From Lumbricus rubellus (Eukaryota > Annelida > Clitellata > Crassiclitellata > Lumbricidae), in NCBI GenBank assembly GCA_945859605.1, contig OX243815.1, positions 49,014,245-49,078,244 of the forward strand: DNA of 64,000 nt. The letters run 5' to 3'. Made by a program: the position numbers and the translations under genes. Shown here in pieces: positions 1 to 54,067 of this stretch (the stretch's first letter is position 1; each line of letters opens with the position of its first letter). Under the pieces are notes generated by a model. It saw nothing but the letters and a program-made list of their open reading frames with translations. It was not told the origin of the DNA and made no database searches.

Positions 1-1485
1 CACTGCATATCTGTGTTACAACACACACACGCAATAACAACAACAATACGATGCTACCAATCATCGTCCAATTCATCCACTGCATATCTGTGTTACAACA
101 CACACACACGCAATAACAACAATACGATACAACCAATCATCGTCCAATTCATCCACTGCATATCTGTGTTACAACACACGCACGCAATAACAACAATACG
201 ATGCAACCAATCATCGTCCAATTCATCCATTGCATATCTGTGTTACAACACACACACACATAATAACAACAAAAATACGATGCTACCAATCATCGTCCAA
301 TTCATCCATTGCATATCTGTGTTACAACACACACACACAATAACAACAATACGATACTACCAATCATCGTCCAATTCATCCACTGCATATCTGTGTTACA
401 ACACACGCACGCAATAACAACAATACGATGCAACCAATCATCGTCCAATTCATCCATTGCATATCTGTGTTACAACACACACACACAATAACAACAACAA
501 TACGATGCTACCAATCATCGTCCAATTCATCCATTGCATATCTGTGTTACAACACACACACGCAATAACAACAATACGATGCTACCAATCATCGTCCAAT
601 TCATCCATTGCATATCTGTGTTACAACACACACACACGCAATAACAACAATACGATACAACCAATCATCGTCCAATTCATCCACTGCATATCTGTGTTAC
701 AACACACACACGCAATAAAAACAATACGATGCAACCAATCATCGTCCAATTCATCCACTGCATGTCTGTGTTACAACACACACACACATAATAACAACAA
801 TACGATGCTACCAATCATCGTCCAATTCATCCACTGCATATCTGTGTTACAACACACACACGCAATAACAACAATACGATGCTACCAATCATCATCCAAT
901 TCATCCACTGCATATCTGTGTTACAACACACACACGCAATAACAACAATACGATGCCACCAATCATCGTCCAATTCATCCATTGCATATCTGTGTTACAA
1001 CACACACACGCAATAACAACAAAACGATGCCACCAATCATCGTCCAATTCATCCATTGCATATCTGTGTTACAACACACACACACGCAATAACAACAACA
1101 ATACGATGCTACCAATCATCGTCCAATTCATCCACTGCATATCTGTGTTACAACACACACACGCAATAAAAACAATACGATACAACCAATCATCGTCCAA
1201 TTCATCCACTGCATATCTGTGTTACAACACACACACGCAATAACAACAAAACGATGCAACCAATCATCGTCCAATTCATCCATTGCATATCTGTGTTACA
1301 ACACACACACGCAATAACAACAATACGATACAACCAATCATCGTCCAATTCATCCACTGCATATCTGTGTTACAACACACACACGCAATAACAACAACAA
1401 CAATACGATGCAACCAATCATCGTCCAATTCATCCATTGCATATCTGTGTTACAACACACACACGCAATAACAACAAAACGATAC
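1..1485 (-). repeat. Array A: minisatellite made of exon-12 splice-acceptor units (copy L)
   Basis: About 20 head-to-tail units of roughly 75 bp, running off the left edge. On the minus (sense) strand each unit reads intron tail, acceptor ACACAG, then the first 40 or so bases of exon 12 of the transporter gene, encoding DMQWMNWTMIG. The same segment is present once, unrepeated, at 48340-48420 in copy R, in front of the intact exon 12. Units differ by CA-dinucleotide number and a few substitutions. The genuine exon 12 of copy L must lie left of base 1. The open frames in this array are by-products of the repeat, not genes. Confidence 0.9.
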
Positions 1486-1665
1486 ACGTATGTATTGATG
1501 TATGCATGTATTGATGTATGTGTGTATGCATGCATGTATATGTATATGAACCTAGCTCTGCTGTGGTTGGTCCAACTTTCATGGCATATTAAATAGTGTT
1601 GATTAGACTGCAGAGTGTTTAGTAGAAGAAGAAGACCAGCTGTCCTGCTAGATTAACTGACTGAC
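1486..1665. other. Intron 11 remainder (copy L), with a segment copied from intron 10
   Basis: Bases 1486-1600 are a TGTATTGATGTATG-type simple repeat followed by a 45-bp unique stretch starting at CCTAGCTCTGCTG. The same arrangement occurs in intron 10 of both copies (11440-11640 and 51840-53220), but not at this place in intron 11 of copy R. Bases 1605-1665 match copy R at 49231 onward and lead to the exon 11 donor. Confidence 0.6.
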
Positions 1666-1860
1666 CTTTACTGTTTCCAATGGCTGGGATCATGAACATG
1701 AGGAGAAAGAAGAGCGCAACGACATTGCTCATCCACGTCTGAACTCCATTCGTTAAACCCTCGGCGATTGGAAAAGCCGTCTCACACGCAAGTTCGTAGA
1801 AGAGCGGAGATGCCCCAGAAATGCCAATCATGACGGCAATGAATGTGGAATAGAGAATAC
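1666..1860 (-). CDS. Copy L exon 11
   Basis: 195 bases coding GILYSTFIAVMIG through MFMIPAIGNSK, the TM region with the ETAFPIAEG motif. Acceptor TTAG directly before GTATTC; donor AAAG before GTCAGT (a donor six bases earlier, A before GTAAAG, would also keep frame). The first two dozen bases and the acceptor are the unit that is repeated in array B. Confidence 0.88.
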
Positions 1861-4800
1861 CTAGAAAAATAAATGAATGTGGAATAGAGAATACCTAAGA
1901 AAATAAATGAATGTGGAGTAGAGAATGCCTAAAAAATAAATGAATGTGGAATAGAGAATACCTAAAACATAAATGATGTGGAGTAGAGAATACCTAAGAA
2001 AATAAATGAATGTGGAGTAGAGAATACCTAGAAAAATAAATGAATGTGGAGTAGAGAATACCTAGAAAAATAAAAGAATGTGGAGTAGAGAATACCTAAG
2101 AAAATAAATGAATGTGGAATAGAGAATGCCTAAGAAAATAACTGAATGTGGAATAGAGAATACCTAAAAAAAATGAATGTGGAATAGAGAATACCTAGAA
2201 AATAAATGAAAGTGGAATAGAGAATACCTAAAAAATAAATGAATGTGGAATAGAGAATACCTAGAAAATAAATGAAAGTCGAGTAGAGAATAACTAAAAA
2301 AAAATGAATGTGGAATAGAGAATACCTAGAAAAAAATTACTGTGGAGTAGAGAATACCTAGAAAATAAATTAATGTGGAATAGAGAACACCTAGAAAATA
2401 AATGAATGTGGAATAGAGAATACCTAAGAAATAAATGAATGTGGAATAGAGAATACCTAAGAAAATAAATGAATGTGGAATAGAGAATACCTAAAACATA
2501 AAAGAATGTGGAATAGAGAATACCTAAGAAATAAATGAATGTGGAGTAGAGAATACCTAAGAAATAAATGAATGTGGAATAGAGAATACCTAGAAAATAA
2601 ATGAATGTGGAATAGAGAATAGTTAAAAAAACAAAATAAATGTGGAATAGAGAATACCTAGAAAAATAAATGAATGTGGAGTAGAGAAACCTAAAAAAAT
2701 AAATTAATGTGGAATAGAGAATACCTAAGAAAAAAATGAATGTGGAGTAGAGAATACCTAAAAAAATTAATGAATGTGGAGTAGAGAATACCTAAAAAAA
2801 TAAATGAATGTGGAGTAGAGAATACCTAAGAAATAAATGAATGTGGAGTAGAGAATACCTAAAAAATAAATGAATGTGGAATAGAGAATACTTAAAAAAA
2901 TAAATGAGTGTGGAATAGAGAATACTTAAAAAATAAATGAATGTGGAATAGAGAATGCCTAGAAAATAAATGAATGTGGACTAGAGAATGCCTAAAAAAT
3001 AAATGAATGTGGAGTAGAGAATACCTAAAAAAAGAATGTGGAATAAAGAATACCTAGAAAAATAAATGAATGTGGAGCAGAGACTACCTAAAAAAATAAA
3101 TGAATGTGGAGTAGAGAATACCTAAGAAATAAATGAATGTGGAGTAGAGAATACCTAAAAAATAAATGAATGTGGAATAGAGAATACCTAGAAAACAAAT
3201 GAAAGTGGAATAGAGAATACCTAAAAAAATAAATGAATGTGGAGTAGAGAATACCTAGAAAAATAAAAGAATGTGGAGTAGAGAATACCTAAGAAAATAA
3301 ATGAATGTGGAATAGAGAATGCCTAAGAAAATAACTGAATGTGGAATAGAGAATACCTAAAAAAAATGAATGTGGAATAGAGAATACCTAGAAAATAAAT
3401 GAATGTGGAATAGAGAATACCTAAAAAATAAATGAATGTGGAATAGAGAATACCTAGAAAATAAATGAAAGTCGAGTAGAGAATAACTAAAAAAAAATGA
3501 ATGTGGAATAGAGAATACCTAGAAAAAAATTACTGTGGAGTAGAGAATACCTAGAAAATAAATTAATGTGGAATAGAGAACACCTAGAAAATAAATGAAT
3601 GTGGAATAGAGAATACCTAAGAAATAAATGAATGTGGATAAGAGAATACCTAAGAAAATAAATGAATGTGGAATAGAGAATACCTAAAACATAAAAGAAT
3701 GTGGAATAGAGAATACTTAAGAAATAAATGAATGTGGAGTAGAGAATACCTAAGAAATAAATGAATGTGGAATAGAGAATACCTAGAAAATAAATGAATG
3801 TGGAATAGAGAATACTTAAAAAAACAAAATAAATGTGGAATAGAGAATACCTAGAAAAATAAATGAATGTGGAGTAGAGAAACCTAAAAAAATACATTAA
3901 TGTGGAATAGAGAATACCTAAGAAAAAAATGAATGTGGAGTAGAGAATACCTAAAAAAATTAATGAATGTGGAGTAGAGAATACCTAAAAAAATAAATGA
4001 ATGTGGAGTAGAGAATACCTAAGAAATAAATGAATGTGGAGTAGAGAATACCTAAAAAATAAATGAATGTGGAATAGAGAATACTTAAATCAATTAATGA
4101 GTGTGGAATAGAGAATACTTAAAAAATAAATGAATGTGGAATAGAGAATGCCTAGAAAATAAATGAATGTGGACTAGAGAATGCCTCAAAAATAAATGAA
4201 TGTGGAGTAGAGAATACCTAAAAAAAAGAATGTGGAATAAAGAATACCTAGAAAAATAAATGAATGTGGAGCAGAGACTACCTAAAAAAATAAATGAATG
4301 TGGAGTAGAGAATACCTAAGAAATAAATGAATGTGGAGTAGAGAATACCTAAAAAATAAATGAATGTGGAATAGAGAATACCTAGAAAACAAATGAATGT
4401 GGAATAGAGAATACCTAAAAAAATAAATGAATGTGGAATAGAGAATACCTAAGAAATAAATGAATGTGGAATAGAGAATAACTAAAAAACAAATGAATGT
4501 GGAATAGGAAATACCTAGAAAATAAATGAATGTGGAGTAGAGAATACCTAGAAAAAAAATGAATGTGGACAAGACAACACCTAAAAAAAATAAATGTGGA
4601 GTAGAGAATACCTAAGAAAAAAATGAATGTGGAGTAGAGAATACCTAGAAAATAAATTAATGTGGAATAGAGAACACCTAAAAAAAATGAATGTGGAGTA
4701 GAGAATACCTAAGAAAATAAATGAATGTGGAGTAGAGAATACCTAGAAAATAAATTAATGTGGAATAGAGAACACCTAAAAAAAATTAATGTGGAGTAGA

Positions 4801-7800
4801 GAATACCTAAGAAAAAAATGAATGTGGAGTAGAGAATACCTAAGAAAATAAATGAATGTGGAGTAGAGAATACCTAGAAAATAAATGAATGTGGAATAGA
4901 GAATACCTAAGAAAATAAATGAATGTGGAGTAGAGAATGCCTAAAAAATAAATGAATGTGGAATAGAGAATGCCTAAGAAAATAACTGAATGTGGAATAG
5001 AGAATACCTAAAAAAAATAAATGTGGAATAGAGAATACCTAAAACATAAATGAATGTGGAGTAGAGAATACCTAAGAAAATAAATGAATGTGGAGTAGAG
5101 AATACCTAGAAAAATAAAAGAATGTGGAGTAGAGAATACCTAAGAAAATAAATGAATGTGGAATAGAGAATGCCTAAGAAAATAACTGAATGTGGAATAG
5201 AGAATACCTAAAAAAAATAAATGTGGAATAGAGAATACCTAGAAAATAAATGAATGTGGAATAAAGAATACCTAAAAAATAAATGAATGTGGAATAGAGA
5301 ATACTTAGAAAATAAATGAAAGTCGAGTAGAGAATAACTAAAAAATAAATGAATGTGGAATAGTGAATACCTAGAAAAAAAATTACTGTGGAGTAGAGAA
5401 TACCTAGAAAATAAATTAATGTAAAATAGAGAACACCTAGAAAATAAATGAATGTGGAATAGAGAATACCTAAGAAATAAATGAATGTGGAATAGAGAAT
5501 ACCTAAGAAAATAAATGAATGTGGAATAGAGAATACCTAAAACATAAAAGACTGTGGAATAGAGAATACCTAAGAAATAAATGAATGTGGAGTAGAGAAT
5601 ACCTAAGAAATAAATGAATGTGGAAAAGAGAATACCTAGAAAATAAATGAATGTGGAATAGAGAATACTTAAAAAAATAAATGAATGTGGAATAGAGAAT
5701 ACCTAGAAAAATAAATGAATGTGGAGTAGAGAAACCTAAAAAAATAAATGAATGTGGAATAGAGAATACCTAAAAAAAATGAATGTGGAGTAGAGAATAC
5801 CTAAAAAAATTAATGAATGTGGAGTAAAGAATACCTAAAAAATAAATGAATGTGGAGTAGAGAATACGTAAGAAATAAATGAATGTGGAGTAGAGAATAC
5901 CTAAAAAATAAATGAATGTGGAATAGAGAATACTTAAAAAAATAAATGAATGTGGAATAAAGAATACTTAAAAAATAAATGAATGTGGAATAGAGAATGC
6001 CTAGAAAATAAATGAATGTGGACTAGAGAATGCCTAGAAAATAAATGAATGTGGAGTAGAGAATACCTAAAAAAAAGAATGTGGAATAAAGAATACCTAG
6101 AAAAATAAATGAATGTGGAGCAGAGACTACCTAAAAAAATAAATGAATGTGGAGTAGAGAATACCTAAGAAATAAATGAATGTGGAGTAGAGATTACCTA
6201 AAAAATAAATGAATGTGGAATAGAGAATACCTAAAAAACAAATGAATGTGGAATAGAGAATACCTAAAAAAATAAATGAATGTGGAATAGAGAATACCTA
6301 AGAAATAAATGAATGTGGAATAGAGAATAACTAAAAAACAAATGAATGTGGAATAGAAAATACCTAGAAAATAAATGAATGTGGAGTAGAGAATACCTAG
6401 AAAAAAAATGAATGTGGACAAAAGAACACCTAAAAAAATTTAACGTGGAGTAGAGAATACCTAAGAAATAAGCGAATGTGGAGTAGAGAATACCTAGAAA
6501 ATAAATTAATGTGGAATAGAGAACACCTAAAAAAATGAATGTGGAGTAGAGAATACCTAAGAAAAAAAATGAATGTGGAGTAGAGAATACCTAGAAAATA
6601 AATTAATGTGGAATAGAGAACACCTAAAAAAAATGAATGTGGAGTAGAGAATACCTAAGAAAAAAATGAATGTGGAGTAGAGAATACCTAAGAAAATAAA
6701 TGAATGTGGAGTAGAGAATACCTAGAAAATAAATGAATGTGGAATAGAGAATACCTAAAAAAATAAATGAATGTAGAATAGAGAATACCTAGAAAATAAA
6801 TGAATGTGGAATAGAGAATACTTAAAAAAATTAAAGAATGTGGAATAGAGAATACCTAAGAAATAAATGAAAGTGGAGTAGAGAATACCTAAAAAATAAA
6901 AGAATGTGGAATAAAGAATACCTAAAAAAAAAGAATGTGGAAAAGAGAATACCTTGAAAATAATAGAGAATACCTAAAAAATAAAAGAATGTGGAAAAGA
7001 GAAAACCTTGAAAATAATTGAATGTGGAATAGAGAATACATAAAAAATAAATGAATGTGAAATAGAGAATACCTAGAAAATAAATGAAAGTGGAATAGAG
7101 AATACCTATAAAATAAATGAATGTGGAGTAGAGAATACCTAAGAAAAAAAATGAATGTGGAATAGAAAATACCTAAAAAAATAAATTAATGTGGAGTAGA
7201 GAATACCTAAGAAAAAAAATGAGTGTGGAATAGAGAATACCTAAGAAAAAAAATGAATGTGGAATAGAGAATACCTAAGAAAATAAATCAATGTGGAATT
7301 AAGAATACCTAAGAAAATAAATCAATGTGGAAAAGAGAATACCTAAGAAAATAAATGAATGTGGAATAGAGAATAACTAAGAAAATAAATGAATATGGAA
7401 TAGAGAATACCTAGAAAATAAATGAATGTGGAGTAGAGAATACCTAAAAAATAAATGAATGTGGAGTAGAGAAATACCTAAAAAATACATGAATGTGGAG
7501 TAGAGAATACCTAAGAAAAAAATGAATGTGAAATAGAGAATACCTAAGAAAATAAATGAATGTGGAGTAGAGAAACCTAAAAAGTAAAAGAATGTGGAGT
7601 AGAGAATACCTAGAAAAATAAATCAATGTGGAATAGAGAATACCTAAGAAAATAACTGAATGTGGAATAGAGAATACCTAAGAAAATAAATCAATGTGGA
7701 ATAGAGAATACCTAAGAAAATAAATGAATGTAAAATAGAGAATACCTAAGAAAATAAATGAATGTGGAGTAGAGAATACCTAATAAATAAATGAATGTGT

Positions 7801-10800
7801 AGTAGACAATACCTAAAAAATCGATGAATGTGGAGTAGAGAATACCCAAGAAAATAAATGAATGTGGAATAGAGAATACCTAGAAAAATAAATGAATGTG
7901 GAGTAGAGAAACCTAAAAAGTAAATGAATGTGGAGTAGAGAATACCTAAGAAAATAAATCAATGTGGAATAGAAAATACCTAAGAAAATAACTGAATGTG
8001 GAATAGAGAATACCTAAGAAAATAAATGAATGTAAAATAGAGAATACTTAAGAAAAAAAATGAATGTGGAGTAGAGAATACCTAAGAAATAAATGAATGT
8101 GGAGTAGACAATACCTAAAAAATACATGAATGTGGAGTAGAGAATACCCAAGAAAATAAATGAATGTGGAGTAGAGAATACCTAAAAAAATAAATGATTG
8201 TGGAGTAGAGAATACCTAAGAAAATAAATGAATTTGGAATAGAGAAAACCTAAGAAAATAAATCAATGTGGAATAGAGAATACCTAAGAAAATAAATGAA
8301 TGTGGAGTAGAGAATACCTAGAAAATAAATGAATGTGGAGTAGAGAATACCTAATAAATAAATGAATGTGGAGTAGACAATACCTAAAAAATATATGAAT
8401 GTGGAGTAGAGAATACCCAAGAAAATAAATGAATGTGGAATAGAAAATACCTAGAAAAATAAATGAATGTGGAGTAGAGAAACCTAAAAAGTAAATGAAT
8501 GTGGAGTAGAGAATACCTAAGAAAATAAATCAATGTGGAATAGAGAATACCTAAGAAAATAACTGAATGTGGAATAGAGAATACCTAAGAAAATAAATGA
8601 ATGTAAAATAGAGAATACCTAAAAAAATAAATGAATGTGGAGTAGAGAATACCTAAGAAATAAATGAATGTGGAGTAGACAATACCTAAAAAATACATGA
8701 ATGTGGAGTAGAGAATACCCAAGAAAATAAATGAATGTGGAGTAGAGAATACCTATAAAATAAATGATTGTGGAGTAGAGAATACCTAAAAAAATTAATG
8801 AATTTGGAATAGAGAAAACCTAGGAAAATAAATGAATGTGGAGTAGAGAATGCCTAAAAAATAAATGAATGTGAAGTAGAGAATACCTAAAAATAAATGA
8901 ATGTGGAATAGAGAATACCTAAGAAAATAAATGAATGTGGAATAGAGAATACCTAAGAAAATAAATGAATGTGGAGTAAAGAATACCTAAGAAATAAATG
9001 AATGTGGAATAGAGAATGCCTAAAAAATAAATGAATGTGGAATAGAGAATACCTAAGAAAATAAATGAATGTGGAGTAGAGAATACCTAAAAAATAAATG
9101 AATGTGGAGTAGAGAATACCTAAGAAAATAAATGAATGTGAAGTAGAGAATACCTAAGAAAAAAATGAATGTGGAGTAAAGAATACCTAAGAAATAAATG
9201 AATGTGGAGTAGAGAATACCTAAGAAATAAATGAATGTGGAGTAGAGAATACCTAAGAAATAAATGAATGTGAAATAGAGAATACCTAAAAAATAAATGA
9301 ATGTGGAGTAGAGAATACCTAAAAAATAAATGAATGTGGAGTAGAAAAATACCTAAAAAATACATGAATGTGGAGTAGAGAATACCTAAGAAATAAATGA
9401 ATGTGGAATAGAGAATACCTAAGAAAATAAATGAATGTGGAGTGGAGAAACCGAAAAAGTAAAAGAATGTGGAGTAGAGAATACCTAAGAAAATAAATCA
9501 ATGTGGAATAGAGAATACCTAAGAAAATAACTGATTGTGGAATAGAGAATACCTAAGAAAAAAAATCAATGTGGAATAGAGAATACCTAAGAAAATAAAT
9601 GAATGTAAAATAGAGAATACATAAGAAAAAAAATGAATGTGGAGTAGAGAATACCTAATAAATAAATGAATGTGGAGTAGACAATACCTAAAAAATACAT
9701 GAATGTGGAGTAGAGAATACCCAAGAAAAAAAATGAATGTGGAATAGAGAATACCTAGAAGAATAAATGAATGTGGAGTAGAGAAACCTAAAAAGTAAAT
9801 GAATGTGGAGTAGAGAATACCTAAGAAAATAAATCAATGTGGAATAGAGAATACCTAAGAAAATAACTGAATGTGGAATAGAGAATACCTAAGAAAATAA
9901 ATGAATGTAAAATAGAGAATACCTAAGAAAATAAATGAATGTGGAGTAGAGAATACCTAAGAAATAAATGAATGTGGAGTAGACAATACATAAAAAATAC
10001 ATGAATGTGGAGTAGAGAATACCCAAGAAAATAAATGAATGTGGAGTAGAGAATACCTAAAAAATAAATGATTGTGGAGTAGAGAATACCTAAGAAAATA
10101 AATGAATTTGGAATAGAGAAAACCTAAGAAAATAAATCAATGTGGAATAGAGAATACCTAAGAAAATAAATGAATGTAAAATAGAGAATACCTAAGAAAA
10201 TAAATGAATGTGGAGTAGAGAATACCTAATAAATAAATGAATGTGGAGTAGACAATACCTAAAAAATACATGAATGTGGAGTAGAGAATACCCAAGAAAA
10301 TAAATGAATGTGGAATAGAAAAAACCTAGAAAAATAAATGAATGTGGAGTAGAGAAACCTAAAAAGTAAATGAATGTGGAGTAGAGAATACCTAAGAAAA
10401 TAAATCAATGTGGAATAGAGAATACCTAAGAAAATAACTGAATGTGGAATAGAGAATACCTAAGAAAATAAATGAATGTAAAATAGAGAATACCTAAGAA
10501 AATAAATGAATGTGGAGTAGAGAATACCTAAGAAATAAATGAATGTGGAGTAGACAATACCTAAAAAATACATGAATGTGGAGTAGAGAATACCCAAGAA
10601 AATAAATGAATGTGGAGTAGAGAATACCTAAAAAATAAATGATTGTGGAGTAGAGAATACCTAAAAAAATAAATGAATTTAGAATAGAGAAAACCTAAGA
10701 AAATAAATGAATGTGGAGTAGAGAATGCCTAAAAAATAAATGAATGTGAAGTAGAGAATATCTAAAAAATAAATGAATGTGGAATAGAGAATACCTAAGA

Positions 10801-13046
10801 AAATAAATGAATGTGGAATAGAGAATGCCTAAAAAATAAATGAATGTGGAAAAGAGAATACCTAAGAAAATAAATGAATGTGGAGTAGAGAATACCTAAA
10901 AAAATAAATGAATGTGGAGTAGAGAATACCTAAGAAAATAAATGAATGTGAAGTAGAGAATACCTAAGAAATAAATGAATGTGGAGTAAAGATTACCTAA
11001 GAAATAAATGAATGTGGAGTAGAGAATACCTAAGAAATAAATGAATGTGGAGTAGAGAATACCTAAGAAATAAATGAATGTGAAATAGAGAATACCTAAA
11101 AAATAAATGAATGTGGAATAGAGAATACCTAAAAAATAGATGAATGTGGAGTAGAGAATACCTAGAAAATAAATTAATGTGGAATAGAGAACACCTAAAA
11201 AAATGAATGTGGAATAGAGAATACCTAAGAAAAAAAATGAATGTGGAGTAGAGAATACCGAAGAAATAAATGAATGTGGAGTAGAGAATACCTAAAAAAT
11301 AAATGAATGTGGAGTAGAGAATACCTAAAAAATAAATGAATGTGGAATAGAGAATACCTAAGAAATAATATTATCATGATTACACAGATCCGTTAAAACA
11401 TGCTGAATGAATACCAACAGTTGATGGGATGATCACAGAATATGCATGTATGTATTGATTTATGCACGTATATATATATATTGATGTATGCACTATGCAT
11501 GTATGTATGTATTGATGTATACACTATGCATGTATTGACGTATGCATGCATGTATGTATTGATGCATGCATACATGTATATATGTGTGTATAAACCTAGC
11601 TCTGCTGCGGTTGGTCCAACTTTCATGGCATATAAATAGTGTTGCTCACACACGCATCAATAGAAATCATCAAAGCTTTGCATCTTTCTGTTAAAGATGA
11701 GCAGAACTAAAGGTGAATGATGCAAACGCTGTGTATCGTAGGCTGACCTCTGTTGAACGGAATGACCTTCATGCATTCCAACGTGAAGATGATGACCATG
11801 ACGAGAGCGAATAGAAACAACGCGATGAGAACACGCTTGAACCGTCTCGCATAGACATCCGTAAACCTGAACAGAAGAAAAACACATCACAGACCATTGA
11901 ACTGAAAGACAAAAACAATTTCCAATTTGCTATGAACATCAGCTGATGATGATATTTAGCAAGAAAAATATGGAGTTGCCATAACTAAGACCCAATCTAA
12001 GTGAAACTATTTTCATGGGTTGATGTCATTTATGAATTATATATATGAAATAGGAGTGCATGCTGAGGATGGTATGAACGAAAAGTCACTTGACTTCGTT
12101 GCTCGCATAACATATGTGAAGATAAATTCAAATAAGGTCACATCTGTAACAACGAGTCTTAGCTGAAGAGCATCAGAGTAAAATAATTTAAACAAAAATA
12201 TACTTAGACAGCAAAACATGTCATTGCACGTTAATTAATGACTAACAGTTTTATAATATTACTAGCGTACCCGGCCACGCGTTGCTGTGGCTGAAAAGAG
12301 CATTACCCTCCCCCTCAACCCCCCCGCCTCCCCTCCCCTCCCCCCGCCTCCCCCTCCCCTCCCCTCCCTTTTCCCGCCCCGCCTCTTCCCCTCCCCTCCC
12401 CCTCCCTCTTTCCCTCCCCTCCCCTCCCCCTCCACTCCCCTCCCCCTCCTCCTCCCCTCCCCCGCCCCTCCCCCTCTCTCACCCCTTCCCATCTCTCCCC
12501 TCTCTGTTCGTCCCGCTCCCTCCCCTCCTTTCCCCCTTGACACCGTCCCTCTCCGATAGCGACGCGGTAGCGCCATAAAACTCTTCAGCAAGAATGCCGC
12601 AATGGGATGTGTTGAAATGCGCTACATAAACGGAACACATTTGAACAACCGTTTGAATCGCGCCCGAATTGGAAGGCAAGGCTTATCGACAGGCGTATGT
12701 GTTGAAAACGGTAGTATTTGCAAAGTTGTTTTTTGTGTGTAAAAGATTGCGCTTTTTCACAAAAATCATTCTGCAAACCCGGCCGTGTTGGAACTAAACG
12801 TTTTGGTGAAGTTTCGAAAGCAATCAATGAAGAAAGTTCGGAGATCTTTGAAGCCGTGCCAAACGCGGTTACATTTTTATTTATATAGATAATAGATAAT
12901 ACTTGTTGTAATCCCTCGAAATTCCTACCGTGATACAACGCAACCCGCTGTTCCACCGACGACTTGACCGATAAATCCGAGCCAACCGGTTTCCAGCTGA
13001 AAGAATGCAAGACACTCTTCTTCAAGATCACGCAACACAAGTAAGG

Positions 13047-13082
<36 letters not shown>

Positions 13083-14189
13083 ACACACACACACACACAC
13101 AGAAGCAACATAACGAGAAACGCAGAAAGCAACAGTCTCTGTTGTAGCATGAGTGAATTCTTCTCTTCAAGGTCAGCGATACAAGTTTTCAATAATTTAT
13201 GCTATTTTCAATGCAAGGGTATTCGAATAAATACTGTTCTTTAAAGTTCAAAAGTGCAACCATTGACCATTGACCAATGACCATGCACAGAACATTTGCA
13301 CAATTATTGTGAACGATCTCAAAGTCTCTTCCTGCACGGAGTGACTGCCAGAGTGGACGCTCAAACCCATACTTCCCCATCACAGATGAAGAGCTTCATC
13401 CATTGGGCAGCTAATGTGCCCCACAAAAGCAATAATAATTAATGTTTGGCGGCTGCACCAACCAGAAATCAATGAAAACATGCAATCCACACAAACAGCG
13501 CACTCAACCATTTATCAGTTAGTGCACAGTTTAATCTAGTGCACGCTGACTGATGGGCATTGTTGTGTGCTGGGTAATGGAATTGAGTGTGGTAAGTAAA
13601 GAAATGAAATAAATTCGATATATGTGTAGATAATGTGCTTAAGTTACTTCGCTGATGAGATCGGTGACGTATAGAGTGAGCATCGACGACCAGATGGCAC
13701 CGATTGCGATGGCTACGGAGAATGTAACGCTCACTTTCCAGAAGTTCACATGTCTATGAAAAACAATAACAACAACTTTCTTATTCAACAAACAAGAAAA
13801 ATAAATAACAGTTAGCAACACTTAAAAGATCGTATTTGTCAAATTTGACAAAAGAGCTCAAATCCCATCACTTTTTACGATTTCTGAATATTTTATTCAG
13901 TCACATTCTACAATTGCTCTGCTTCCAAATAGTTTTTGCAGAATGACCTTTTTCTAACTGAAATTATACTCATTTGATTCTTTCATTAGAATTGAGTGAG
14001 AAAATAGACTAAAACGTCAAAAGAATATTCGTGTCATCAAAGTCCTCAGTGGCCATTACTTGATTATCCTACAATTTTGCTGGGCAATAAAGGAATATAA
14101 CCTGAATCAAATAACGCAAACAACATGAAAAATGGTTTGCTGCTTTGCAAAATAAGGAAAACCCATAGGCAACTATCAAATTGATTGAC

Positions 14190-14245
<56 letters not shown>

Positions 14246-23200: not shown

Positions 23201-26200
23201 ATTCCTTCCGATATGGAACGAATGCAGTTATATAAGACGATTGAATCGAAATTAACGTTGCCAGTTGCGTATAGAGCTCGTCAATGCGACACGATAACAG
23301 TTCCCCAGTCGACAAGTTTCAGTTGGCGTCTCAGCGTAAAAACATCACCGGAGAAACCTAGATATATCATCGTAGGATTTCAGACGGACCGTAGCGGTAA
23401 TCAGGAAAGTAATCCATCACTCTTTGATCACTGCGATCTCAAGAACATTTATGTGATGATGAATCAAGAAAGATATCCAGCTGTAGATCATAACCTGTCG
23501 TTTCCTAATCAACAATTCTCCAGAGCGTACAGAGACGCATCCTCCTTTAGTCAAAAATTCTATGGTATGGATAAGTTGATTACGCAAAGCAATATAACAC
23601 CTGTAGATTATAAAGAATTATATCCGCTGTTCGTGTTCGATGTAAGCAAACAATCCGAGCGTTTGAAATCGTCAGTCGTTGATATTCAGATTAAGGCTCT
23701 TTTCAATGCGGCAGTACCAGCCGACACCGAAGCGTATGCTGTCGTAATTTCAGATAGGTTGCTGCAGTTCCAATCGGATGGACAGACAATGAGTGTAGTG
23801 TATGGAAAATTGATTTAAAGAATACTTATATATTATGAAGCTACCAGAGCTTAGAATGTTAGCCAATCAGAACAATGTTACAGGCACTTCACATCTCAAC
23901 AAACCTCAACTTATAGCTGTATTGATCGAAAAGAATATTCTTCCGACGGACTACACGGCTATGCCATATCGACATGACACGTTGAGTAGTATCAGGAAAC
24001 AACCGAGAAGAGTAGATATTATAGATCGAGAGACTGGCGTTGTTACCGCGTATCCATCGATGTATAAAGCCGCTAAGGCGTATGGTCACTGGTCAGAGTG
24101 CTGGCGTTATAGCTTATCATAACGGTAATGTCTGGAGAGATAGATACGAAATTAAAGTGTATGAGAGATATTAATATTTTTGCGTGGTAAGATAAAATGG
24201 ATTTAAAGAAAAGTAGTTTAAGAAATATGGACCATGTTGAACACTTGCTTGACTCGTCGGTTCCTGACATTAAAGTTCCTACGCTTACGCCGAGAAAGTA
24301 CAAGCCAGTAGTGCCTACGAGAACATACACCAATAAGGTTAGATCCAAAATTAATGATTTTGCGGATTGGTTACTTAGTTACGTGCCCGAACAAGCAGAG
24401 GTTAATGAAAAACTGGAATCGTTGAAATCAACTGTTTCCAGGATATTTGATAAAAATAAAATTCGAGAAACGGCGACGGCTATTAAAGGATTCACCAAGC
24501 AGTATAGAATAGATGGAATTAATGTAATGGATGCCTCGTCGTTTCTTGATTTCGTCAAACCGTAGGTAGTAAATCTGTTGTCGAACAATCGCCAGACAAA
24601 GACTAATTTAGTTCTTACTTGTACTATGGAACGAGTAGATATGAAATCTGGAGTAGTTAATTCAGAGGATATACCATTCGTTTCCAGGGCAGAAGTTATT
24701 TTAGATGCTACCGACTTGAATGAAATATACAGCAGAAAAAAGGATAAAATCATGGAGTCTATTGCTAGTTTTCAGATGCAAGGAAGTAATTGGAGATTTA
24801 AAGCTGTTGTGAGATTAGATATAAATACGGTAAAATATACACCCTTAAGAGGTAGTTCTTACATTCCGCTTCCCAACTTCTTAGCTAATAAAAAGGCTAT
24901 TATAAATATGAAAAACGACGACGAAGAATGCTTCAAATGGTGTATTACTAGAGCGTTGAACCCTGTAGAAAAAAACCCACAGATAATAACTAAAGCTTTG
25001 AAAGAACAATCAAAAAAACTTAATTGGAGTGGTATTGAATTTCCAGTTGCTGCTGATGCTAATGTGGTAGGTAAATTTGAGAGAAATAATAATATTAGTG
25101 TTAATGTATTTGGTTACGAAAAATTTGTCTACCCGCTTTATCTGTCTAAGTGTGAAAGCGATATTTGTGTTGATCTACTAGTCATATCTGATGGAGATAG
25201 GAAGCATTATTGTTGGATTAAGAACTTTAATAAATTGATGACATTGGGGACTCATTCGATGCACTACTGTAGAAGATGTATGAGTGGTTACACAACTATA
25301 GATGCACTTAGCAGGCATAATGAGTACTGCTCACAACATAACGCACAAAAAATCGAAATGCCAGAGCCAGGGATTATGTTAAGTTTTAAAAATTATAACA
25401 GATCTATGAGGGTTCCGTTTATAGTATATGCTGACTTTGAGTCTTTCATCAAACCGATCGATACATGCCAACCAAATCCAGAGTTGTCGTACACTAATAA
25501 ATATCAAAAGCATATTCCTAGCTCCTTTTGTTATTACATCAAATGTTTCGACGATAGTGTATATTCTCAAGATCCTGTGACGTTTACGGCTGAAAGCGAA
25601 GATGATGATGTTGGTCAAATATTTGTAGATAAACTCGAAGAGAATATAAAACGAATCTATAATCAATTCAAATTCTCTAAGAAGATGATATTTACAGAAG
25701 AGGACAAGAAGTGTTTTGATGGAGCTACTATATGTCATATCTGCGAAGGAACGTTGGGTGAAGACCGAGTGAGAGATCACTGTCATCTTAGCGGTAAATT
25801 TAGAGGTGCTGCTCATAACAGTTGTAATATAAACTATAAATGTCCAAAGTTCTTTCCCATTGTGTTTCATAATCTTTCCGGGTACGATTGCCCTCTGTTC
25901 ATTAAGAAACTGAGAGGTGACAATGGAGAGAAAATTAACTGCATACCTAATAACGAGGAAAAGTATATATCTTTTAGCAGAGAGGTCGTTGTTGATAAGT
26001 TTGTAAATAAAGAGGGAAAAGAGATTACCGTCAAGCGCGAATTACGCTTTATCGATAGTTTTAAATTTATGGCTTCTAGTCTCGATGCCTTATCGAAGAA
26101 TCTTCACAAAGACCAGTGCAGAAACATTGGAAATCGATATACAGGAAAGAAGCTCGATCTTTTGCTACGAAAAGGCATATATCCTTATGACTACGTCGAT

Positions 26201-29200
26201 TCATTTACTACCTTTAATGAAACCGAACTACCACCAAAATCCGCTTTCTATTCTAAGCTAAATGACTCGAATATTAGCGATAAGGACTACGAACATGCAC
26301 AAACGGTATGGAAAGAATTTGGATGTAAAACATTCAGAGAGTATCACGATTTGTACAACGTTTCGGATGTTCTGCTACTTGCCGACGTTTTCGAAAACTT
26401 TAGAGATGTGTGTATGAAGAACTATACGCTTGACCCTGCATGGTATTTTACATCTCCTGGCTTAGCCTGGGATGCCGCTTTAAAATTGACAGACGTGAAA
26501 TTGGAGTTATTGAGTGATTACGATATGATTCTGATGCTCCGGCAAGGGATAAGAGGAGGAGTGAGCACAATATCAAATCGTTACGGGAAAGCGAATAATA
26601 AATATATGAGCGATTTCAATAGCAACGAAAATTCTACATTTATCACTTACCTGGATGCGAATAATCTATACGGGTGGGCTATGATCAAACCTTTACCTAC
26701 TCACGGGTTCAAATGGATGAGTGAAACTGATTTAAATAATTGGAGAAGTATTCCATGCATATTGGAAGTTGATTTGGAATACCCTAAAGAGTTACACGAC
26801 CTGCATAACGATTATCCGTTAGCTCCTGAAAGCATTGAGATTGACAAAGTCAAAAAGTTAATTCCAAACTTAAACGATAAAAAGAAATATGTGGTACACT
26901 ACGATAATCTGAAGCTGTATGAGAGTTTAGGTTTGAAAATAACAAAAGTGCATAGAGGTATACTATTCGAAGAAAGTGATTGGTTGAAAAAGTATATCGA
27001 TTTAAATACAGCTCTTAGAACGAAAGCTACTAATGACTTTGAGAAAGACTTTTTCAAACTAATGATTAACAGTGTCTTTGGAAAAACTTGTGAGAACATT
27101 GAAAACCGAGTTGATGTAAGGTTAGTGTGCCAAGAGAAGGACGCTATTAAATTAGCTGCAAAACCTAATTACGAGAGTTGTACTATTTTCGATGAAAATC
27201 TAATAGCCGTTCACATGAAAAGAACTAAACTGTACTATAATAAACCTATCTATCTTGGCATGTGTATATTAGATTTGAGTAAAACGTTGATGTACGACTT
27301 TCATTACAATTACATCAAGACTAAATACGGAAATAGAGCTAAATTATTATTTACTGATACAGATTCTTTGACATACGAAATTAAAACTGAAGACTTTTAC
27401 TCAGATATCGCAGAAGATATTAAAGCTCGATTCGACACGAGTGAATACCCGAGAGATCATCCATCTGGTATTGAGGTTGGAGTAAATAAAAAAGTTATTG
27501 GAATGTTCAAGGATGAAACTAGTGGGAAACAGATAAAAGAATTTATCGGACTGCGAGCAAAGTTGTATTCTTATCAGATGGCTGCTGGAGATGAGCACAA
27601 GAAATGTAAAGGTATTAAGAAGAATGTTGTCCAGAAAACTATTACTCACGAAGATTATAGAAACTGCTTATTTACTAAAAAAGAACAACAACGAACGATG
27701 AATGTTATTAGATCTTATCATCACGATATTTATACGGAAGAAATTAATAAAGTTGCATTATCTGCAGATGACGATAAACGGGTAATAATGCAAGATGGTA
27801 TAAGCACGTTATCTTATGGTCATTACTCGTTGAAAAATTTTAATTAATGTTTATATTTAATAAATGAGCGTCAAACAAATCGATGTTTGTGGAGTAGTGC
27901 TACCGAATATTGCTTTATCGAATGTGGATCTAATCGAAGCGGCTAAGAAACGAAACATCAATAATTTCAGAGGAGTATTTCTCAGAGACGAGCTGCCGAA
28001 GCAACCTGGACGGAATGAGTGTGGGATATTGAATCTAGACGATTCTAATGGGGTAGGCTCGCACTGGTGCACTTTCTTAAAGAGCGGTAATGAGAAAATA
28101 TATTTCGATAGTTACGGCCTTCCTCCCCCTCTGGAACTGATAAAGTATTTACACCGTCCAGTGTTATATAACAGCGAACGCATACAGCCGGATAACGAAG
28201 TGTTTTGCGGCCATTTATGTTTGTATGTATTGAAGAAAACGATGAACGATGGAATTAATTTTCAAGAAGTTATAAACGGCTTGCATTAAAAATTATTATA
28301 TATATAAAATGCCTGTTGATAAATTTGGTCACACTGATGTTGGTTCATCACAAAGAGTAATCGCTGGAGGAGTTACTCTTAGTCAAATAAATGAGAGTTT
28401 TCTTCGATTGGATGGAGCAAACATCGCGACTGGAAATTTAAAAATGGGTGGTCACAAAATTAAAGGACTACCTACAACGAACACTTCGACTGCCGGAATG
28501 GATGAAGCTTTAAGTAGGGGGCAAGCCATTGATTTGATAACGAATCACAACGATTCTCCGTCCAACGATAATCATTTGACGAATAAGAAATACGTTGATG
28601 AACAAGTTACATTGAAGGTGTCTAAGACTGGTGATACAATGACTGGTGATCTATTCTTAAACGTTGGCTCCGATCGTCTGCGTTCAATGGGTTGTAAGGA
28701 CTTGAGAGGAGAAAATAAAGAATTCACTATTTTCTTAGGTAGTATACGAAATAAACTACAATGTTCGTTAAACAATCCTATTACATTACAATCGATGGAT
28801 GGATTTCCTTTTAGAATAAACAATGAAATCATGTTAGAGATGGTTAAGTCACTCGATGGCACTCCTCCGTCTAAAATAAATGTGTATAAGTCCATCTTTA
28901 TGCATGATGCTTACATTACAGGGCTACACGAACCCAACAGCGCCAGCGATGCAGCTACGAAGCAGTTTGTAGATTCTATCTCAATCGGTCCCGCGCTTAG
29001 CATTCATTCTTTAACTTGGCAATTCTTAATCGCTAAAACTCACACAAGAGTTACTTTCGATAGTGTAAGATTCAAAACCGATGGTGTTATAAGTGCGGGA
29101 ATGACCCGTTTCACTCCCGGTAAAGCCGGATACTATTTCGTTTCGACGTACATAGAATTTGGTAACAGTAGTACCGCTCCTGGTAACGTCTACCTGTATA

Positions 29201-32200
29201 GAAATGGGGCGAATTACATGCAAATTGCGGGCGGAGGGGGAACGGGAGCTGCGTTTAACAATTCAACCGGTAGTTGCATAATTTTCGTAGCCAATACCGA
29301 TTTTCTCGAGATATTCGCTTATTCACACATCGCACTAAATATATTAGCTAGAGACTTTTCGACAGTATTCTTACGACCTTAGCCCTGCTGATCGCATGCC
29401 AGACGCTTAATTATATTACTGGCGAGGTATACGAACGCCGATGCCTTCTGCATGCTTCGGTATAATTATAATCCTAGGTGATGGGCTATCTAAAACGCTC
29501 ATTGCTCGCTGTTTAACCAAAGCTTATCCAAAAGAATTTAACTGCTTTTAACCCTATTTAATTTGTTTATTAGCTCAAATAGAAAATATGCCAGGTTATC
29601 CAATTAACTACTACTGCCACACAGCAAAGGCACTCTGCAATGATTCAAAACAAAATAGTAGATGAGCAATGCAACAAACGCAGCCACACAGCAAAGGCAC
29701 TCTGCAATGATTCAGAACAAAATAGTAGATGAGCAATGCAACAAACGCAGCCACACAGCAAAGGCACTCTGCAATGATTCAAAACAAAGTAGTAGATGAG
29801 CAATGCAACAAACGCAGCCACACAGCAAAGGCACTCTGCAATGATTCAAAACAAAGTAGTAGATGAGCAATGCAACAAACGCAGCCACACAGCAAAGGCA
29901 CTCTGCAATGATTCAAAACAAAGTAGTAGATGAGCAATGCAACAAACGCAGCCACACAGCAAAGGCACTCTGCAATGATTCAAAACAAAGTAGTAGATGA
30001 GCAATGCAACAAACGCAGCCACACAGCAAAGGCACTCTGCAATGATTCAAAACAAAAAAGTAGATGAGCAATGCAACAAACGCAGCCACACAGCAAAGGC
30101 ACTCTGCAATGATTCAAAACAAAAAAGTAGATGAGCAACGCAACAAACGCAGCCACACAGCAAAGGCACTCTGCAATGATTCAAAACAAAAAAGTAGATG
30201 AGCAATGCAACAAACGCAGCCACACAGCAAAGGCACTCTGCAATGATTCAAAACAAAATAGTAGATGAGCAATGCAACAATCGCAGCCACACAGCAAAGG
30301 CACTCTGCAATGATTCAAAACAAAATAGTAGATGAGCAATGCAACAAACGCAGCCACACAGCAAAGGCACTCTGCAATGATTCAGAACAAAATAGTAGAT
30401 GAGCAATGCAACAAACGCAGCCACACAGCAAAGGCACTCTGCAATGATTCAAAACAAAGTAGTAGATGAGCAATGCAACAAACGCAGACACACAGCAAAG
30501 GCACTCTGCAATGATTCAAAACAAAGTAGTAGATGAGCAATGCAACAAACGCAGCCACACAGCAAAGGCACTCTGCAATGATTCAAAACAAAGTAGTAGA
30601 TGAGCAATGCAACAAACGCAGCCACACAGCAAAGGCACTCTGCAATGATTCAAAACAAAGTAGTAGATGAGCAATGCAACAAACGCAGCCACACAGCAAA
30701 GGCACTCTGCAATGATTCAAAACAAAAAAGTAGATGAGCAATGCAACAAACGCAGCCACACAGCAAAGGCACTCTGCAATGATTCAAAACAAAAAAGTAG
30801 ATGAGCAACGCAACAAACGCAGCCACACAGCAAAGGCACTCTGTAATGATTCAAAACAAAAAAAGTAGATGAGCAACGCAACAAACGCAGCCACACAGCA
30901 AAGGCACTCTGCAATGATTCAAAACAAAATAGTAGATGAGCAATGCAACAGTCGCAGCCACACAGCAAAGGCACTCTGCAATGATTCAAAACAAAAAAGT
31001 AGATGAGCAATGCAACAAACGCAGCCACACAGCAAAGGCACTCTGCAATGATTCAAAACAAAATAGTAGATGAGCAATGCAACAAACGCAGCCACACAGC
31101 AAAGGCACTCTGCAATGATTCAGAACAAAATAGTAGATGAGCAATGCAACAAACGCAGCCACACAGCAAAGGCACTCTGCAATGATTCAAAACAAAAAAG
31201 TAGATGAGCAATGCAACAAACGCAGCCACACAGCAAAGGCACTCTGCAAAGATTCAAAACAAAATAGTAGATGAGCAACGCAACAAACGCAGCCACACAG
31301 CAAAGGCACTCTGCAATGATTCAAAACAAAATAGTAGATGAGCAATGCAACAAACGCAGCCACACAGCAAAGGCACTCTGCAAAGATTCAAAACAAAATA
31401 GTAGATGAGCAACGCAACAAACGCAGCCACACAGCAAAGGCACTCTGCAATGATTCAAAACAAAATAGTAGATGAGCAATGCAACAAACGCAGCCACACA
31501 GCAAAAGCACTCTGCAATGATTCAAAACAAAAAAGTAGATGAGCAACGCAACAAACGCAGCGACACAGCAAAGGCACTCTGCAATGATTCAAAACAAAAA
31601 GTAGATGAGCAACGCAACAAACGCAGCCACACAGCAAAGACACTCTGCAATGATTCAAAACAAAAAAGTAGATGAGCAATGCAACAAACGCAGCCACACA
31701 GCAAAGGCACTCTGCAATGATTCAAAACAAAAAAGTAGATGAGCAATGCAACAAACGCAGCCACACAGCAAAGGCACTCTGCAATGATTCAAAACAAAAA
31801 AGTAGATGAGCAACGCAACAAACGCAGCCACACAGCAAAGGCACTCTGCAATGATTCAAAACAAAAAAGTAGATGAGCAATGCAACAAACGCAGCCACAC
31901 AGCAAAGGCACTCTGCAATGATTCAAAACAAAATAGTAGATGAGCAATGCAACAATCGCAGCCACACAGCAAAGGCACTCTGCAATGATTCAAAACAAAA
32001 TAGTAGATGAGCAATGCAACAAACGCAGCCACACAGCAAAGGCACTCTGCAATGATTCAGAACAAAATAGTAGATGAGCAATGCAACAAACGCAGCCACA
32101 CAGCAAAGGCACTCTGCAATGATTCAAAACAAAGTAGTAGATGAGCAATGCAACAAACGCAGACACACAGCAAAGGCACTCTGCAATGATTCAAAACAAA

Positions 32201-35200
32201 GTAGTAGATGAGCAATGCAACAAACGCAGCCACACAGCAAAGGCACTCTGCAATGATTCAAAACAAAGTAGTAGATGAGCAATGCAACAAACGCAGCCAC
32301 ACAGCAAAGGCACTCTGCAATGATTCAAAACAAAGTAGTAGATGAGCAATGCAACAAACGCAGCCACACAGCAAAGGCACTCTGCAATGATTCAAAACAA
32401 AAAAGTAGATGAGCAATGCAACAAACGCAGCCACACAGCAAAGGCACTCTGCAATGATTCAAAACAAAAAAGTAGATGAGCAACGCAACAAACGCAGCCA
32501 CACAGCAAAGGCACTCTGTAATGATTCAAAACAAAAAAAGTAGATGAGCAACGCAACAAACGCAGCCACACAGCAAAGGCACTCTGCAATGATTCAAAAC
32601 AAAATAGTAGATGAGCAATGCAACAGTCGCAGCCACACAGCAAAGGCACTCTGCAATGATTCAAAACAAAAAAGTAGATGAGCAATGCAACAAACGCAGC
32701 CACACAGCAAAGGCACTCTGCAATGATTCAAAACAAAATAGTAGATGAGCAATGCAACAAACGCAGCCACACAGCAAAGGCACTCTGCAATGATTCAAAA
32801 CAAAATAGTAGATGAGCAATGCAACAAACGCAGCCACACAGCAAAGGCACTCTGCAATGATTCAAAACAAAAAAGTAGATGAGCAATGCAACAAACGCAG
32901 CCACACAGCAAAGGCACTCTGCAAAGATTCAAAACAAAATAGTAGATGAGCAACGCAACAAACGCAGCCACACAGCAAAGGCACTCTGCAATGATTCAAA
33001 ACAAAATAGTAGATGAGCAATGCAACAAACGCAGCCACACAGCAAAGGCACTCTGCAAAGATTCAAAACAAAATAGTAGATGAGCAACGCAACAAACGCA
33101 GCCACACAGCAAAGGCACTCTGCAATGATTCAAAACAAAATAGTAGATGAGCAATGCAACAAACGCAGCCACACAGCAAAAGCACTCTGCAATGATTCAA
33201 AACAAAAAAGTAGATGAGCAACGCAACAAACGCAGCGACACAGCAAAGGCACTCTGCAATGATTCAAAACAAAAAGTAGATGAGCAACGCAACAAACGCA
33301 GCCACACAGCAAAGACACTCTGCAATGATTCAAAACAAAAAAGTAGATGAGCAATGCAACAAACGCAGCCACACAGCAAAGGCACTCTGCAATGATTCAA
33401 AACAAAAAAGTAGATGAGCAATGCAACAAACGCAGCCACACAGCAAAGGCACTCTGCAATGATTCAAAACAAAAAAGTAGATGAGCAACGCAACAAACGC
33501 AGCCACACAGCAAAGGCACTCTGCAATGATTCAAAACAAAAAAGTAGATGAGCAATGCAACAAACGCAGCCACACAGCAAAGGCACTCTGCAATGATTCA
33601 AAACAAAATAGTAGATGAGCAACGCAACAAACGCAGCCACACAGCAAAGGCACTCTGCAATGATTCAAAACAAAAAAGTAGATGAGCAATGCAACAAACG
33701 CAGCCACACAGCAAAGGCACTCTGCAATGATTCAAAACAAAAAAGTAGATGAGCAACGCAACAAACGCAGCCACACAGCAAAGGCACTCTGCAATGATTC
33801 AAAACAAAAAAGTAGATGAGCAATGCAACAAACGCAGCCACACAGCAAAGGCACTCTGCAATGATTCAAAACAAAAAAGTAGATGAGCAATGCAACAAAC
33901 GCAGCCACACAGCAAAGGCACTCTGCAATGATTCAAAACAAAAAAGTAGATGAGCAATGCAACAAACGCAGCCACACAGCAAAGGCACTCTGCAATGATT
34001 CAAAACAAAATAGTAGACGAGCAATGCAACAAACGCAGCCACACAGCATAGGCACTCTGCAATGATTCAAAACAAAAAAGTAGATGAGCAACGCAACAAA
34101 CGCAGCCACACAGCAAAGGCACTCTGCAATGATTCAAAACAAAAAAGTAGATGAGCAATGCAACAAACGCAGCCACACAGCAAAGGCACTCTGCAATGAT
34201 TCAAAACAAAATAGTAGATGAGCAACGCAACAAACGCAGCCACACAGCAAAGGCACTCTGCAATGATTCAAAACAAAATAGTAGATGAGCAATGCAACAA
34301 ACGCAGCCACACAGCAAAGACACTCTGCAATGATTCAAAACAAAAAAGTAGATGAGCAATGCAACAAACGCAGCCACACAGCAAAGGCACTCTGCAATGA
34401 TTCAAAACAAAAAAGTAGATGAGCAATGCAACAAACGCAGCCACACAGCAAAGGCACTCTGCAATGATTCAAAACAAAATTCATTCGTTGGTTCATTCAA
34501 AAATATATACATAGCGCCCTAGGTATCAAGGCAGCTCCTCAGAAGCACTCACAGCACCAGTCCTCACAAAAAGGCAAGTTTACAAATGGCAATGTTACGA
34601 TTCTCAAGTGAATGTCATATCAATCATGCAAAATTAGATATTCATTACGTTATTAAGTAAATAACTGAGATCATCTTTTGCAGCAGTGCAACAGATGCAC
34701 AAGAGAAGAGTCTGGTGGTTAGATCACTTGAATGTCTGGCTAAATCAGCAGCAGAATCAAGCAATCTGCATAGCTACCAGACTCATAGCCCTTTGAGGCT
34801 AAGAAAACTGAAGGACTCACAGCCCTTTGAGGCTAAGAGAGCTGAAGGACTCACAGCCCTTTGAGGCTAAGAGAGCTGAAGGACTCACAGCCCTTTGAGG
34901 CTAAGAGAGCTGAAGTCGCTAACAATTCACAACTATGGTGCTTCAGATGGGGCTATGGACCAGTGTGGCTGCTCATGGGGTAAGGGGGGTTTAATGCAAG
35001 GAATCGAAGGTGCTGGTCTTAACAGTCTCCACCCCACAGACTAATCAAAATAGTCTTGGATAAAGAGATTTCTAAATGTCAGTGTCATAGTAATCTCAAG
35101 ATTTCTACAGCTCCCAGAAAGTAAAGTCATAAGACTCAGTTAACACACAGTTGCTCAGTCAAAATAGAATCGATAGGCAGGTTACGCATCAGAATCATGC

Positions 35201-38630: not shown

Positions 38631-39772
38631 TATTTATTTATTTATTTACTGAGAATTTGATATAGCGCTCCTTCAAGGTTACTACTCAGGAGCGCTTCCA
38701 GTCCAACCCCGGTCGAATAAGACAGTTTTGAGAAGAAAAAGAAATGAAGTAGAAGTAGAAAGGCTAATAGGTATTTGACGAAGGATAACAGGGAGCTCAT
38801 TCCAGGTCGCAGGGCCAGCCACGGAGAAAGCGCGGCGCTGCCTGATTGCAGTCCGAGAGCGTGGAACAATAAGTTCCGCTTGCGCAGCTGAGCGGAGAGA
38901 GCAGCGGCGTTGAACATGCGTGGTCGAGCAACAGAGCTCCTGCAAGTATAAAGGAGCCAAACCCTCAAAGCAGCACCGGACCAATACGGAAATTCTGTAC
39001 GTAATGCGCTGTGGGTAAGGGAGCCAGTGGAGTACATCCTGCATGTACTCGGAGACTCGGCCAAATTTGGGAATGCGGCCTATGAGGCGGGCAGCAGTGC
39101 GCAGGACCCTATTTAGGGGCCCCACCCGAGAGGCTGGAAGTCCACCGTATATAGAACTGCAGTAGTCCAAGCGTGAAACTACAAATGCATGAACAAGTGT
39201 TGAGGTTGCGCTAGGAGTCAAAGAGCGGGAAATGACCTTGAGCTGCCGAAGCTGGTAGTAACAGCTGCGACACAGAAGGTTAATGTGCCGCGTAAATGTG
39301 AGTTCCTGGTCAATGATGACTCCCAAATTCCGGACAGAAGTGGAAAAAGTGAAATGTGGATATTTCAAGGATAGGGAAGCTAAATCAATTTTGGAAAGCT
39401 GCTGGGGCGTTCCAAGCCAGATAAGCTGAGTCTTATTAGGGTTAAGGCGCAGGCGGTTTGAGGACATCCAGAACTGCAGGGTTACTATAGTCTGGCTTAT
39501 TGTTCCAACCGCTGCGTCAGCATGAGCCGCCAGACAGTGGACATAAGCTTGCAGGTCGTCAGCATAAGATTGGCTGTGAACATCCATAGCTGTCAGCAGG
39601 GAGCCCAGATCGGCAGTGTAAATTATGTAAAGGAGGGGTCCAAGAACGGAACCTTGAGGCAAACCTATTGGAGCAGGGACCCATGAGGACTTAGTGGATC
39701 CATAAGCTACCATGAAGGAGCGGTCCTGCAAAAACGAAGCAAGTCAATCAAGTGCGTTACCATTAGGACGCC
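38631..39772 (-). mobile_element. 5'-truncated CR1/L2-like LINE fragment
   Basis: Minus-strand frame 38682-39731 encodes the second half of a reverse transcriptase: GLPQGSVLGPLLYIIYTADL, the catalytic SYADDLQAY, LNPNKTQLIW, VRNLGVIID, and the C-terminal SVAGPATWNELP typical of the CR1/L2/Jockey assemblage. No endonuclease domain is present. The 3' end carries a hairpin (GCGCTCCT / AGGAGCGC) and a TAAA-type tail. Copy R at about 62,380 has the uninterrupted site, so insertion followed the gene duplication. Confidence 0.82.

Positions 39773-54031: not shown

Positions 54032-54067
<36 letters not shown>

Follow-up and report, generated by a model that had tools for sequence, protein, structure and literature searches.

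In this analysis, three tandem arrays that lie inside introns of a transporter gene were found to be built from the 3' splice sites of that gene: their units carry the acceptors of exons 7, 11 and 12 (3 of the 11 acceptors) and measure 67, 33 and 74 bp, respectively. The window, by which we mean the whole 64,000-nucleotide stretch of DNA that was analyzed, holds two copies of the gene; the case is notable for the scale of the arrays, for the presence of three of them in one gene and because two are common to both copies. We consider it probable that the arrays are minisatellites of the type called mirages, which have been tolerated and have expanded by unequal exchange or slippage. The observation that drew attention to this DNA, made in a sequence-only reading, is true, striking and of a known kind.

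The transporter gene and its two copies

The gene is a 12-exon SLC49/FLVCR-like transporter gene on the minus strand, present as two copies in direct tandem, a duplication that the sequence-only reading had overlooked. Copy 1 extends from position 38208 down past the window start, and copy 2 extends from 61962 to 48130. When joined, the 12 exons of copy 2 encode an open 537-residue protein; exons 1 to 11 of copy 1 are also open, exon 12 of that copy being outside the window. A 13-exon alternative, in which a 50-nt exon followed exon 2, was dropped, since its protein was frame-shifted whereas the 12-exon model is open. The encoded protein belongs to the major facilitator family (MFS_1, E value of 6e-19), and its matches among solved structures are FLVCR1 and FLVCR2 (1.3e-22 to 1.7e-20, with FLVCR1 at 1.3e-22); the label SLC49A4 is a putative one. 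The exons, as placed by the gene model (for exon 12, by gene model and alignment), are as follows.

1672 to 1860, minus strand: exon 11, copy 1
11748 to 11866, minus strand: exon 10, copy 1
12929 to 12996, minus strand: exon 9, copy 1
13648 to 13753, minus strand: exon 8, copy 1
14646 to 14775, minus strand: exon 7, copy 1
35380 to 38208, minus strand: exons 1 to 6, copy 1 (37830-38208, 37285-37375, 36854-37017, 36368-36410, 35689-35717, 35380-35424)
48130 to 48380, minus strand: exon 12, copy 2, with a single unarrayed acceptor
49342 to 49530, minus strand: exon 11, copy 2
53338 to 54399, minus strand: exons 8 to 10, copy 2 (54294-54399, 53898-53965, 53338-53456)
55249 to 55378, minus strand: exon 7, copy 2
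58671 to 61962, minus strand: exons 1 to 6, copy 2 (61584-61962, 60658-60748, 60229-60392, 59340-59382, 58976-59004, 58671-58715)

Across exons 1 to 11 the copies differ at 35 codons, and the coding sequence is under apparent constraint between them (dN 0.019, dS 0.059); exon GC content is 0.50, with a GC3 of 0.54. In the gene model, copy 2 has 11 introns and copy 1 has the first 10 of these, none of which appears to have been added by an array. The duplication takes in the whole gene and upstream sequence (1 to 44674 and 48130 to 63854), with aligned blocks that are 88.6 to 96.0% identical and in direct orientation. Upstream of copy 1, at 38682 to 39743, there is a reverse transcriptase fragment (RVT_1, 4.4e-10).

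Anatomy of the arrays

The arrays are referred to as A, B and C, with B' and C' denoting those of copy 2. Their positions, and that of an insertion within array C, are listed below.

1 to 1483, minus strand: array A, copy 1, 74-bp unit, 19.7 copies, with the acceptor and first ~40 nt of exon 12; runs off the window (from tandem-repeat finding and the match to copy 2)
1838 to 11368, minus strand: array B, copy 1, 33-bp unit, 286 units, with the acceptor and first ~23 nt of exon 11
14731 to 15164, minus strand: exon-proximal part of array C, copy 1, 67-bp unit, 6 units including the true exon
15165 to 29615, plus strand: Polinton/Maverick-type insertion inside array C, copy 1, 14.45 kb, with 163-bp terminal inverted repeats and a 6-bp target-site duplication, GCCACA
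29616 to 34480, minus strand: distal part of array C, copy 1, 72 units
49508 to 51765, minus strand: array B', copy 2, 68 units
55334 to 56941, minus strand: array C', copy 2, 24 units

The arrays lie inside introns 11 (A), 10 (B) and 6 (C), and their units comprise about 40 nt of exon and 34 nt of intron in A, about 23 nt of exon and 10 to 11 nt of intron in B, and 45 nt of exon and 22 nt of intron in C. The sequence-only reading had described each unit as straddling the acceptor of exon 12, 11 or 7 (A, B and C, respectively) and as a decoy acceptor followed by the true exon start. Both statements were borne out: the exon numbers agree with the 12-exon model, CAG is present at the acceptor in all 102 matched C units (both copies, true exons included) and in 19 of 19 A units, and AG/G is present in 242 of the 286 B units of copy 1 and in 60 of the 68 units of copy 2 (true exons included). 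The additional claim that every array lies directly upstream of the genuine exon holds for B and C, which adjoin exons 11 and 7 in both gene copies; array A was recognized through the boundary of exon 12 in copy 2 (48341 to 48417), which its unit matches at 94.9 to 96.1% in four alignments, exon 12 of copy 1 being outside the window. The array C unit gave no exact match in viral contigs.

B and C are arrayed in both copies; A is arrayed in copy 1 only, with one unit in copy 2. Unit numbers in copy 1 versus copy 2 are 286 versus 68 for B, 78 versus 24 for C and about 20 versus 1 for A, an instability of length that refers to gene copies, not to individuals. The recurrence of B and C in the second copy is a matter of common descent; most simply, these two arrays predate the gene duplication, and the state of array A reflects either amplification in copy 1 or loss from copy 2. 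The single-unit exon 12 site of copy 2 is likely to be the starting state. This site reads ...GACGACGT/ATTGTTG in the intron and ...GGCATCGT/CGTTTG in the exon, and array A of copy 1 joins GGCATCGT/ATTGTTG, with a 3-bp overlap (CGT) relative to the single-unit copy 2 as judged by eye. For B and C, the junctions gave overlaps of 0 to 2 bp, also judged by eye and not cleanly readable.

The insertion in array C is a member of the Polinton/Maverick group. Because its 163-bp inverted ends are 99.4% identical and it is flanked by the 6-bp target duplication, these data suggest that it inserted recently, after the array had formed. Domain matches above the cut-off were to a retroviral-type integrase (PF00665, 7.4e-8) and a double jelly-roll capsid protein (PF21738, 6.5e-57), and those below it to an A32-like packaging ATPase (PF04665, 4.9e-4) and a chromodomain (1e-4). 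The 1,093-residue open reading frame, which is presumably the DNA polymerase, had a sole match, to endonuclease VII, below the cut-off, and 4 of the 8 insertion reading frames searched had no domain match. In copy 2, two inverted-repeat elements (51940 to 53169 and 56965 to 57936; ends CACTGTGTCC, TA-flanked by eye) lie just upstream of B' and C' and were not seen in the corresponding stretches of copy 1.

Decoy acceptors and the reading frame

The earlier suggestion that splicing to the last acceptor leaves the mRNA unchanged is compatible with the reading frame. Use of the last acceptor gives a frame that is open through exons 1 to 12 of copy 2 and exons 1 to 11 of copy 1; none of the 273 strict-motif decoys tested (57 from B', 23 from C' and 193 from B, with B decoys read through exon 11 only) keeps it open. 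Decoys that add an in-frame peptide were rejected on the same count. Because the tested decoys close the frame and the coding sequences are nonetheless open and conserved, we infer that the last acceptor is the one used in splicing.

Pyrimidine content in sampled decoys (four each from C', B' and A) equals that of the remaining units; in B' and C' it also equals that of the true site. The true site and the internal C' decoys that were sampled each have a YTNAY site 29 nt upstream, supplied by the exon part of the preceding unit; the 5'-most C' decoy has no such site at 29 nt upstream. What sets the true site apart is its last position, beside the rest of the exon and the donor, and exon definition is the probable basis of its use. 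In array C, the decoy and true sites are nearly identical locally, and therefore position must decide.

Selection that holds the decoy AGs in array B is unsupported, since the AG dinucleotide, which is intact in 249 of 286 units, is no better kept than the exon-part positions, which are intact in 252 to 286 of 286 (the TAT/TAC site aside). Most other positions of A and C are near-invariant too, and intact AGs in those arrays therefore say little.

Turnover of the units

C units fall into 22 types overall, 19 in copy 1 and 9 in copy 2, and one of the 6 types common to both copies is the true exon start itself. Among B units there are 140 types in the 286 of copy 1 and 37 in the 68 of copy 2, with 14 in common. 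Identity between B units is raised for pairs that lie 56 units apart (17.8%) and 36 units apart (10.8%), with no run of eight identical units. A synonymous excess among common array variants was considered and was not significant (4 of the 6 common and 18 of the 58 rare variants are synonymous; Fisher P of 0.17).

The synonymous TAT and TAC variants are both common in each array (142:138 in B and 27:41 in B', true exons included), and the same difference separates the true exons 11 of the two copies, a pattern which hints that exon and array may trade sequence. The CTC-to-CTA change in exon 11 of copy 2, however, is private to the true exon and absent from the other B and B' units, which speaks against free exchange between exon and array.

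Chance and acceptor bias

That three such arrays exceed chance, as had been argued, is true under random placement: the probability that one randomly placed unit spans an acceptor is 0.066 (74 bp), 0.020 (33 bp) or 0.058 (67 bp), and the product of the three is 7.7e-5, or 2.2e-4 with mobile elements and one microsatellite removed from the null. The argument is weaker when the denominator consists of all tandem-repeat loci with a period of at least 20 in the introns of the gene, where the probability of three or more is 0.010 to 0.026 for 10 loci and 0.005 to 0.013 for 8, in a test that is post hoc. The loci counted were A, B and C, with B/B' and C/C' each entered once, plus those at 11471, 12307 to 12490, 34780, 35259, 48467, 49273 and 51837; the entries at 11471 and 51837 possibly represent a single locus seen in both copies, and the ten would then become nine. 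Repeats with a period below 20, those within the Polinton, one upstream of the gene and array sub-rows were left out.

Near-copies of a 24-nt window were found within 1.5 kb at 4 of the 21 acceptor positions, representing 2 of the 11 acceptor loci (exon 12 in copy 1 falling outside the test), at none of the 22 donor positions and at 40 of 895 random positions, the last being the remainder of 2,000 drawn once arrays and insertion were excluded. Arrays occur at 3 of 11 acceptors and 0 of 11 donors, a difference that is not significant (about 0.11, one-sided, by hand calculation), and an acceptor-specific process is indistinguishable from chance on these data. Two small repeats, at 35259 to 35370 (exon 6, copy 1) and 49273 to 49334 (exon 11, copy 2), start no more than about 10 nt downstream of a donor and do not include it.

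Discussion

Tandem repeats across exon-intron boundaries, 5' as well as 3', are in print as mirages for the lancelet Adh, globin, troponin C and PGBD5 genes (PMC3087553, PMC3902484). The class is already known and is not confined to acceptors, contrary to the earlier impression that the pattern was undescribed. According to the available text of PMC3087553, the lancelet globin gene BflGb6 repeats the 3' end of an intron with the 5' part of an exon, and BflGb9 has a duplicate of a 3' exon boundary; that text also cites earlier Adh3 mirages and other loci, notes that regular splicing seems undisturbed and that haplotypes differ in length, and puts forward a model for intron gain. The accessible part of PMC3902484 describes repeats at splice sites of PGBD5, both 5' and 3', and also mentions troponin C. 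The cases named mirages in these portions of the two papers have cephalochordate hosts.

Like the lancelet mirages (PMC3087553, PMC3902484), the arrays have a boundary-spanning unit beside the real exon, as seen for B and C in both copies, and splice signals are kept in many units. Length is unstable in both, between haplotypes in lancelets and between gene copies here, and mRNA is reported as normal for lancelet mirages (PMC3087553) and would be expected to be normal here. Unlike them, the arrays reach 286 copies, compared with 3 and 6 units of 150 to 160 bp in BflGb6 and 3 of 108 bp in PGBD5, and are thus longer than these published examples; the units, at 33 to 74 bp, are near the 10 to 72 bp quoted in later papers for lancelet Adh3. 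They also differ from the lancelet mirages, as far as the accessible text describes these, in numbering three per gene, in involving 3' splice sites only and in that two are common to both gene copies.

Other systems share part of this architecture. In lancelet VCBP3 (PMC2632668), full or partial exon copies with splice sites are intronic and lie beside coding exons, but in the available text they are reported without details (data not shown) and not as long arrays. The Rogers intron-gain model (cited in PMC3087553; AG/GT-containing segments) likewise invokes intragenic tandem duplication with splice signals, whereas the present gene model needs no extra intron and the arrays remain within introns. 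In human segmental duplications (PMC2812944), minisatellite units likewise lie at the exon-intron boundaries of genes that were duplicated recently; unlike those described here, they average 30 bp, repeated 4 times, and form novel introns or alternative transcripts, as far as the accessible text goes. Among the matches listed in a literature search outside lancelets, this human case was the only one, and the available part of PMC2206037 refers to tandem repeats in a lancelet gene and makes no mention of splice-site arrays.

We postulate that a short segment, whose ends shared little or no microhomology, was duplicated in tandem and that this duplication by chance covered a 3' splice site. It would have been tolerated because the acceptor closest to the downstream donor could, through exon definition, still yield normal mRNA, and the extra copies of the unit would thereby have turned intronic. 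Unequal exchange or slippage may then have lengthened and partly homogenized the arrays, with the exon copy, held by selection, serving as a permanent seed, whereas arrays elsewhere in introns could decay. Tolerance alone would predict arrays to be equally numerous at donors or within plain intron sequence; no array sits on any of the 11 donors, although the difference is not significant.

It can be envisioned instead that a process linked to splicing or transcription, such as R-loops or forks stalled at acceptors, preferentially duplicates 3' splice sites. The three largest arrays are on acceptors and none is on a donor, and both the random-placement product and the near-copy counts point the same way; however, the placement argument is post hoc and falls to 0.010 to 0.026 with the ten-locus denominator, the acceptor-donor difference is not significant, and lancelet mirages in print also occur at 5' boundaries, to judge from the accessible parts of PMC3087553 and PMC3902484. 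Such a process, which the sequence-only reading had offered as one of two possible explanations, is unsupported over chance, and we regard it as very unlikely. Functional decoys, whereby upstream acceptors would give truncated, decay-targeted transcripts that tune the gene at a dose set by array length, would fit the closed frames of all 273 decoys tested, the intact AG of every matched A and C unit and most B units, and the presence of B and C in both gene copies. This explanation is highly improbable given that AG is not preferentially kept in B, that A and C are near-invariant at most other positions too and that, from one copy to the other, B differs in length about four-fold and C about three-fold, with A unarrayed in copy 2.

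An assembly artefact, in which array lengths or the whole second copy reflect haplotypes placed in tandem or mis-sized repeats, also has to be considered, since the copies are similar and directly oriented and the available text of PMC3087553 mentions a mirage that was apparently aberrantly assembled in a genome draft. Each copy has its own insertions (the Polinton in copy 1 and the two inverted-repeat elements in copy 2), the units vary richly, and the boundary-spanning unit would stand even if the copies were haplotypes; we judge an artefact to be quite improbable. The reading that we prefer remains that of tolerated, expanded mirages. A broader proposal, which we consider unlikely, is that 3' splice sites are favored places for mirages to form and that the exon, as an undying seed, keeps renewing them; exon start and array would in this way coevolve, and the arrays could grow to hundreds of copies. 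Should the host not be a lancelet, long mirages would then represent a wider animal class.

In conclusion, these arrays constitute a large natural test of how one acceptor is chosen among tens to hundreds of near-identical ones. A single genome holds both the arrayed and the single state of the exon 12 acceptor and two lengths of each of the other two arrays, and the copy number, the three arrays per gene and the paired gene copies make this locus a good specimen for the study of acceptor choice and array turnover.
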